Source: Halorussus salilacus
Lineage (GTDB): Archaea; Halobacteriota; Halobacteria; Halobacteriales; Haladaptataceae
NCBI RefSeq assembly: GCF_024138125.1
Contig: NZ_CP099993.1
Span: 1,426,001 to 1,490,000, forward strand
Length of the DNA stretch: 64,000 bases
Direction of reading: 5' to 3'
How positions within the stretch are numbered: position 1 is the stretch's first letter; each line of letters opens with the position of its first letter. This document shows, piece after piece, positions 46,276 to 47,865 of the stretch. A program made the position numbers and the translations under genes. The notes beneath the pieces are model-generated. The model searched no databases, was not told where the DNA came from, and saw only the letters and a list, made by a program, of their open reading frames with translations.

Positions 46276-46818
46276 TCAGCCTTCGGTTTCGAGGACGCCC
46301 CGGAGTCGGTCGCTCTCCTCGCCTCCGACCGGAGCCACCTCGAACCCAAGCGACTCGTAGAAGGGCCGGACGTTCGGGTCGAACTCGGCGGTGAGTCGGG
46401 GGTGGCGCTCGGCGGCCGTTCGGACCAGTTCGGCACCGATTCCCCGCCCGCGCCGGGAGCGTCGAACCGCCACGGCGTCGACGCGCGCGTCGACGCCGCG
46501 GCGGTCCGAGTCGCGGGTCCGACCGAGAGGGACCAGCACGAGCGCGCCGAGAATCGGGGCGTCGCGTCGGTCCTGCCCGGCGTCCTCGTCGCCTCGCGGT
46601 TCCACCGCTCGGCGTTCCGAGGCGTCTCCGCGAGCGACGCTCGCGGCGGCTCGGGAGTGCTCGTCTCTCCCGGCGCTTCGCGCCTCGCTCGCGACCAGCG
46701 CGTCCCCCGCCGCTATCCGCTCGGAGAGGTCCTCGCCGACTTCCAGCATCGCGGCGTCCAGCACCCGACGAATCCCGAGTCGGTCGCCGGGTGTCGCCTC
46801 GCGGACTCGAACGCTCAT
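46276..46818 (-). CDS. GNAT family N-acetyltransferase with variable insertion
   Basis: A 180-residue GNAT protein. The N-terminal MSVRVREATPGDRLGIRRVLDAAMLEV and the acetyl-CoA loop RRSRRGRGIGAELVRTAAERHPRLTAEFDPNVRPFYESLGF are typical. Between them, residues about 46-86 form an unusual Arg/Asp/Gly-rich low-complexity insertion, in which an 8-bp perfect hairpin (46628-46646) lies; normal GNATs have a short strand-turn there. The start codon overlaps the stop of the SAMP2-peroxiredoxin gene (ATGA at 46815-46818), so the two are translationally coupled. Substrate unknown; protein or small-molecule acetylation are equally possible. Confidence 0.8.
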   Translation of the reverse strand: MSVRVREATPGDRLGIRRVLDAAMLEVGEDLSERIAAGDALVASEARSAGRDEHSRAAASVARGDASERRAVEPRGDEDAGQDRRDAPILGALVLVPLGRTRDSDRRGVDARVDAVAVRRSRRGRGIGAELVRTAAERHPRLTAEFDPNVRPFYESLGFEVAPVGGEESDRLRGVLETEG

Positions 46819-47642
46819 TCGTCGGCGAGCATCCGGTCGACCATCGCCAGCACGTCGTCGACCGAAGGCCGGTCGCCGGGCGAGTCGCCGCGGTGGACCG
46901 CGTACAGTTGCGGGTCGTCGCGTACGTCGAGAATCGCGACCTGCGGCATCCGGCCCGCGAGGTCGATGCGCTTGCCGAGCGCCCCGAACCGCACCGGCTG
47001 GCCGTACCGGTCGGCGACGCGCGTGTCCTCGTCTGCAACGAGGGCGAAGGGGAGGTGATACTTCTCCTGCCACTTCTCGGCTTTCGCCTTCGACTCGGGC
47101 AGGACCGAGACGACCGCGGCGTGTCTGTCGCGGAACTCGTCGTAGCGGTCGGCGACCGCTTGGACCTGCTCGCGGCAGTTCCGACAGTGGTAGTCGCGCT
47201 GGAAGAACAGGACGACCGCGTCGTTTCGGGGCGTCGTCTCGCGGCGCGGCGCGGGCCGACCGACGCCGTCGGTCGGCCCCGCCGCGAGGTCGGCCAGCGA
47301 GAGCGGGTCCGGGCCGGTCCCCGCGTTCGGGAGTTCGAAGTCGAGGTCCGAGACCCCCAGCGCGTCCCGCTCGCGGTCGAACTCGGGCACGGGTCCGGTG
47401 TCGGCCTCGTCGCCCGCCGCGAGGCCGGTTCCCGCTTCGTCGTCGCTACCGCCCTTGATGAGTCGAAGCACTTTGACGTGGTCGGTCTCGACCGGCTGGT
47501 CCTCGGGCACCGGTCGGCCCTCGACCATCACAGACACCTCGTGGGGGCTGAGGCCCACCTCCGCGAGGAGGTCGGCGTAGGTCGGGTCCTCGACTTCGAG
47601 GTCGTGGCTCCCCTCGCCGACGACCTCGACGGTCACGTTCAT
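46815..47642 (-). CDS. SAMP2-like ubiquitin-like domain fused to a peroxiredoxin-like domain
   Basis: A 275-residue protein. Residues 1-65 (MNVTVEVVGEGSHDL... to VLRLIKGG) match, from memory, the small archaeal modifier SAMP2, a beta-grasp ubiquitin-like protein normally of 66 residues ending in diglycine (here Gly64-Gly65). After an acidic linker (about 66-95) a thioredoxin/peroxiredoxin fold begins (DLDFELPNAGTGPDPLSL), with VVLFFQRDYHCRNCREQVQAVADRYDEF holding Cys153 and Cys156 (CxxC). Thus the modifier is followed by more protein after GG. In one reading frame shift a TAG follows GG directly and a GTG opens the second domain 50 bp on, so two genes fused by one indel is an alternative. ATGA-coupled to the GNAT gene. 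Confidence 0.8.
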   Translation of the reverse strand: MNVTVEVVGEGSHDLEVEDPTYADLLAEVGLSPHEVSVMVEGRPVPEDQPVETDHVKVLRLIKGGSDDEAGTGLAAGDEADTGPVPEFDRERDALGVSDLDFELPNAGTGPDPLSLADLAAGPTDGVGRPAPRRETTPRNDAVVLFFQRDYHCRNCREQVQAVADRYDEFRDRHAAVVSVLPESKAKAEKWQEKYHLPFALVADEDTRVADRYGQPVRFGALGKRIDLAGRMPQVAILDVRDDPQLYAVHRGDSPGDRPSVDDVLAMVDRMLADE

Positions 47643-47865
47643 GGGAGTTGGTTTCGGCGCGCGGGTGGTAAGCGTGTCGGGGATTTCTCGGATTCGTCAA
47701 GACGGGGGAATTGGAGGGACGTGGCCGGTCAGAAGGCCCTCGTTCGCACTGAAACTGGAACGGCGGAGTCAGCAACAGCCAGAAAGCCCCCGCCCGGAGG
47801 ACGATTCACCGGCCGTGTCGTGGCGGTTGGTCAGTCGGCACGAAATCCACCAAGTACGCCCCGGG

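Follow-up and report, generated by a model that had tools for sequence, protein, structure and literature searches.

A SAMP2-redoxin fusion of Halorussus as a predicted precursor of the ubiquitin-like modifier SAMP2

In the window analysed here, a stretch of 64,000 nucleotides from Halorussus salilacus (contig NZ_CP099993.1, positions 1,426,001 to 1,490,000), a single open reading frame joins a complete SAMP2 domain, directly after its Gly-Gly, to a variable linker and a redoxin domain. We consider it likely that this fusion is a pro-SAMP2, predicted to be cut after Gly65 by the desampylase JAMM1 so that SAMP2 and the redoxin are released. The first-pass annotation had raised such a precursor by analogy with ubiquitin fusions and with a JAMM-type desampylase in mind; comparative genomics supports this reading well, and we infer the cleavage itself.

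Domain organization of the fusion

Residues 1 to 65 score above the cut-off of the NCBIfam model NF041919 (112 bits against 70, with the full model covered) and close with LRLIKGG (residues 59 to 65), which confirms the full SAMP2-like domain ending in LIKGG at residue 65 that had been noted from the sequence. The redoxin-like domain with Cys153 and Cys156 (CRNC) was likewise identified correctly: both cysteines are there, and the AhpC-TSA match PF00578 spans residues 139 to 214 (62 bits against 26). The predicted structure, a model of modest quality (mean pLDDT 62.5), shows a beta-grasp-like pattern over residues 1 to 61, low confidence over residues 64 to 113 and a thioredoxin-type fold over residues 142 to 273, and in the PDB it matches peroxiredoxins and ResA best. 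As 210 residues lie downstream of Gly65, the primary translation product has no free C-terminal Gly-Gly, and SAMP2 would have to obtain one through processing. The C-terminal product predicted on release comprises linker and redoxin domain together (residues 66 to 275).

Table 1. Features of the SAMP2-redoxin locus (positions in the window)
Feature	Position	Strand	Remarks
SAMP2-redoxin fusion ORF, 275 aa	46815..47642	(-)	ATG at 47642, TGA stop 46815-46817
SAMP2 domain, residues 1-65	47448..47642	(-)	NF041919 E 1.2e-32, PF21965 E 9e-30
LIKGG motif, residues 61-65	47448..47462	(-)	predicted cut site directly follows Gly65 (47448/47447)
Acidic variable-length linker, residues 66-95	47358..47447	(-)	pN/pS 0.785; residues 64-113 pLDDT <50
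Redoxin (AhpC/TSA) domain, residues 96-275	46818..47357	(-)	PF00578 E 6.8e-17; peroxiredoxin/ResA-like fold
CRNC, Cys153 and Cys156	47175..47186	(-)	Cys156 is the better conserved of the two
GNAT acetyltransferase gene, 3' of the fusion	46276..46818	(-)	start codon overlaps fusion stop (ATGA)

Conservation of the fusion across Halorussus

Comparison of the locus in related genomes, a check that the first-pass annotation had suggested, found SAMP2 and redoxin in one ORF, with a single frame across the junction, in 17 of the 18 Halorussus genomes, one of them a complete chromosome. The frame of one fragmentary genome (G011) breaks later, within the redoxin and not at the junction. In the eighteenth genome (G017) the two parts are split, SAMP2 ending in LIKGGAV-stop and the redoxin start adjoining; its redoxin nests within the fused clade of the redoxin tree with moderate support, a placement suggesting that the split is secondary. 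Sister genera of the same family encode a free SAMP2 ending exactly in GG-stop, and other families have SAMP2 and redoxin as two adjacent genes, some of the pairs sharing a frame that a TGA or TAG interrupts.

Selection acts on the Gly-Gly boundary

Among the 16 full-length Halorussus fusions, each from a different species, pN/pS is 0.033 for residues 56 to 65, 0.785 for the linker (residues 66 to 95) and 0.436 for the redoxin core. LIKGG itself carries no non-synonymous difference among the 16 species, despite silent variation at the K63, G64 and G65 codons, and linker length ranges from 12 to 50 residues among relatives. Because LIKGG is invariant and the linker is nearly unconstrained from the very next residue, the selected boundary falls exactly after Gly65, and a cleavage site would be expected to leave just such a boundary behind the diglycine. 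The redoxin CxxC, instead, does not appear to be what selection holds, since 7 of the 16 fusions lack one of its cysteines: the first is replaced by Ser in six and the second in one (L008), and at least one is kept in all 16. The first-pass emphasis on a CxxC enzyme fits the cysteines of the H. salilacus protein and is weakened by the lack of conservation of the motif among the Halorussus fusions.

The fused copy is the sole SAMP2 of a genome that retains its machinery

Each of the 18 Halorussus genomes yields a single SAMP2 match, namely the fused or split one, and a search of the H. salilacus genome found no second, free SAMP2. The same genome encodes UbaA (NF047750) and NcsA (NF047749), three SAMP1-like proteins ending in GG-stop and a JAMM1 that matches the "desampylase" model NF041370 over its cut-off (E 2e-46); a JAMM1 match is present in all 18 Halorussus genomes. 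The locus shares features of a Ubl precursor fusion: SAMP2 is encoded solely as an extended precursor with a conserved Gly-Gly at the junction, and the genome has a gene for a Ubl-specific protease. E1 chemistry proceeds by adenylation of a C-terminal glycine; with the only SAMP2 fused, no SAMP2 would thus be available to UbaA unless the fusion is cleaved. In Haloferax, thiolation of tRNA-Lys requires SAMP2, UbaA and NcsA (PMC4048286).

Repeated origin and other extended SAMP2 proteins

SAMP2-redoxin fusions also occur beyond Halorussus, in G324, in G093, G157 and G221, and in G265. The redoxin tree needs four changes between the fused and unfused states, of which well-supported branches require three or more; we infer three gains and one loss, so that the fusion would have arisen about three times in haloarchaea. 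A further partner is found in G036, where SAMP2 is joined directly to a GNAT domain (L083:1055-1636; LIAGG followed by SVEIRSARDD...) homologous to the GNAT gene that lies 3' of the H. salilacus fusion. All redoxin-fusion clades and this GNAT fusion keep GG at the junction. SAMP2, redoxin and GNAT recur as neighbours across haloarchaea.

We surveyed 392 genomes of the order for the codon following the pattern [VI][LV]RLIKGG. This codon is a stop in 182 genomes and not a stop in 59, which belong to 16 genera; the reversed control pattern gave one match in a first survey and none among the matches listed in a second. When read, the extended SAMP2s have intact domains and tails ranging from two residues to whole domains. 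Free SAMP2s with short tails past the GG (L116 to L154) are found in many genomes, the tails including SR, EQ, AA, RS, RWD, ATDGA and TGTGDSP, and the 13 SAMP2s read from one genus (g7, family f5) all bear 5 to 11 extra residues.

Extension of SAMP2 is associated with JAMM1

Of the 392 genomes, 279 had a JAMM1. The 64 extended SAMP2s identified up to that stage all lay in JAMM1-positive genomes, compared with 117 of the 182 GG-stop ones (Fisher p 1e-10), and the corresponding contrast at genus level was 19/47 versus 0/14 (p 0.003). In the remaining 65 GG-stop genomes, which lack JAMM1, a profile search returned weaker JAMM homologues, none with an E-value below 4.5e-13; JAMM1 of Halorussus reaches about 3e-21 or better. 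A simple prediction of the link is that genomes without JAMM1 have no extension. Among the SAMP2 loci that the pattern had missed in JAMM1-less genomes, 47 were read, and only three of these do not end in GG-stop: one has a GGGG end, one is a broken copy and one is a real extension. This last case (L199 in G053, a MAG of 71% completeness) is an in-frame SAMP2-GNAT fusion in a genome where no JAMM1 was detected and whose sister genomes have a stop at that point, and it is possibly a counter-example to the JAMM1 link, or else an error.

Together, 205 SAMP2s were read, a set partly chosen for being extended, so that its proportions are not rates, and leaving out about 98 JAMM1-positive genomes; in this set, extension was seen in 64 of 136 SAMP2s from JAMM1-positive genomes and in 1 of 69 from JAMM1-less ones, placing 64 of the 65 extended proteins in JAMM1-bearing genomes. 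An independent-pairs test on the short SAMP2 tree offered too few supported pairs and had low power. The association is thus strong by counts and by genera and not yet phylogenetically proven among related genomes.

Proposed maturation of SAMP2 and alternative explanations

We propose that translation yields SAMP2 with a redoxin extension at its C-terminus, carried on a disordered acidic linker, and that the JAMM1-type desampylase of the same genome would hydrolyse the peptide bond after Gly65. Cleavage would free mature SAMP2 with a Gly-Gly end that UbaA could adenylate, for service in protein sampylation and, together with NcsA, in tRNA 2-thiolation; the redoxin would be released 1:1 with it. 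Such a fusion may have originated when a stop codon separating two genes was lost, in a set of genes that adjoin in many haloarchaea (SAMP2, redoxin and GNAT), and we suggest that JAMM1, already present in the lineage, made it tolerable. Should cleavage be confirmed, a haloarchaeal tRNA-sulfur carrier and protein modifier would be made as a proprotein, JAMM1 would have a maturation role besides deconjugation, and the SAMP2-redoxin fusion would provide a natural, testable JAMM1 substrate in culturable archaea. It is tempting to speculate that the uncleaved fusion serves as a regulated, redox-sensing store of SAMP2, with the oxidation state of the redoxin controlling cleavage by JAMM1 or, alternatively, with control through persulfidation of the redoxin by thiocarboxylated SAMP2, along the lines suggested for yeast Urm1/Ahp1. 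We give this idea, in either form, a small chance of being right; if true, both sampylation and tRNA thiolation would be coupled to oxidative stress.

Processing might also fall to another protease in place of JAMM1, such as JAMM2 acting with partners or some further endopeptidase, which we regard as unlikely. JAMM-family proteins other than JAMM1 occur in all 65 JAMM1-less genomes examined, a role in recycling SAMP2 has been proposed for JAMM2 of Haloferax (PMC4895103), and the extended SAMP2 of G053 sits in a genome without detected JAMM1. However, the occurrence of extension follows that of JAMM1 rather than that of its weaker homologues, HvJAMM2 produced in E. coli was inactive (PMC4895103), and a linear fusion was cut by HvJAMM1 alone (PMC4443979). 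Less likely again is that the protein is never cleaved and SAMP2 has become a permanent domain of a redox protein, with SAMP1-type proteins taking over the roles of a free modifier. The three SAMP1-like proteins with GG ends fit this scenario, as does the partial redundancy in sulfur transfer that archaeal Ubls can show, as reported for Thermococcus (PMC11323500). Yet an internal LIKGG unchanged in 16 species is most easily explained by a free-C-terminus function, UbaA and NcsA are retained, and a linker of 12 to 50 residues implies no fixed geometry; the permanent SAMP tag entertained in the first-pass annotation is disfavoured by the strict purifying selection on the internal Gly-Gly of what is the only SAMP2 in the genome.

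Free SAMP2 could also arise without proteolysis, if ribosomes shifted frame or terminated at the junction and the redoxin were initiated separately, and the H. salilacus sequence does contain an alternative-frame TAG at the junction (GGT AGC) and a GTG in the linker. That TAG, however, occurs in 1 of the 16 Halorussus sequences and is a coincidence, the GTG start is not conserved among them and 11 of the 16 linkers have no in-frame ATG, GTG or TTG, and we consider this route very improbable; a conserved alternative-frame stop and an internal redoxin start were both rejected as candidates. The same TAG and GTG had led to the suggestion that a one-base deletion fused two adjacent genes, which is indeed the state in many relatives. 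An error of sequencing or assembly is nonetheless ruled out for practical purposes, since the same fusion, with differing linkers, is present in 17 Halorussus genomes and in at least two other clades, where it would have originated independently.

Relation to known Ubl fusions

Ubl precursors are already known as a class: eukaryotic ubiquitin is made fused to ribosomal proteins and is cut after Gly-Gly before use. These fusions and other Ubl precursors resemble the haloarchaeal one in having an internal Gly-Gly followed by a protein or a short tail, so that a protease must expose the C-terminus. They differ in that the haloarchaeal partner is a redoxin (or GNAT) instead of a ribosomal protein, that the protease expected is a JAMM metalloprotease and that the Ubl is the Urm1/ThiS-like SAMP2. 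Archaeal Ubl precursors have been described in Caldiarchaeum subterraneum, where CsRpn11 cuts the ubiquitin precursor after Gly-Gly and CsJAMM cleaves SAMP precursors; that ubiquitin precursor, from a different archaeal lineage, has a nine-residue tail and no folded protein (PMC6043591).

Also related are the natural SAMP1/MoaD-MoaE fusions and an engineered SAMP1-MoaE, in which a Ubl likewise has a linear C-terminal partner. HvJAMM1 cuts linear SAMP1-MoaE exactly after Gly-Gly in vitro, yielding active parts, and in vivo cleavage of the ectopically expressed fusion depends on jamm1 and on the Gly-Gly (PMC4443979). The Ubl is joined there to its own enzyme subunit (PMC4443979), whereas SAMP2 is the Ubl of tRNA thiolation and sampylation and its partner is a redoxin. 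A conserved archaeal Ubl gene fusion is also known from Thaumarchaea, in which, going by the paper's description and not by sequence, the partner Cgi121 is a KEOPS subunit (PMC2948915). Regarding the redoxin, an archaeal Urm1 conjugates to the yeast peroxiredoxin Ahp1, another case in which an Urm1-like modifier is functionally tied to a peroxiredoxin, there through a post-translational isopeptide conjugate and in Halorussus through a genetic fusion (PMC12645042). The fusion thus links an Urm1-like modifier genetically to a peroxiredoxin-like protein, echoing Urm1-Ahp1. In the open-access literature searched, we found no description of a haloarchaeal SAMP2 precursor or of a SAMP2-redoxin fusion.

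Additional observations

At two loci (L040 and L203), the SAMP2 domain is broken mid-sequence ahead of the redoxin; the breaks probably reflect errors in the sequence or decay of the copies, in MAGs that are incomplete. One relative of the redoxin domain (L052) lies outside haloarchaea, in a record labelled Thermoplasmata. Finally, nearly every Halorussus locus has a conserved block (CCCGACACGCTTACCAC) some 30 bases upstream of SAMP2, at approximately 47665-47684 in the window, which is likely a promoter element.
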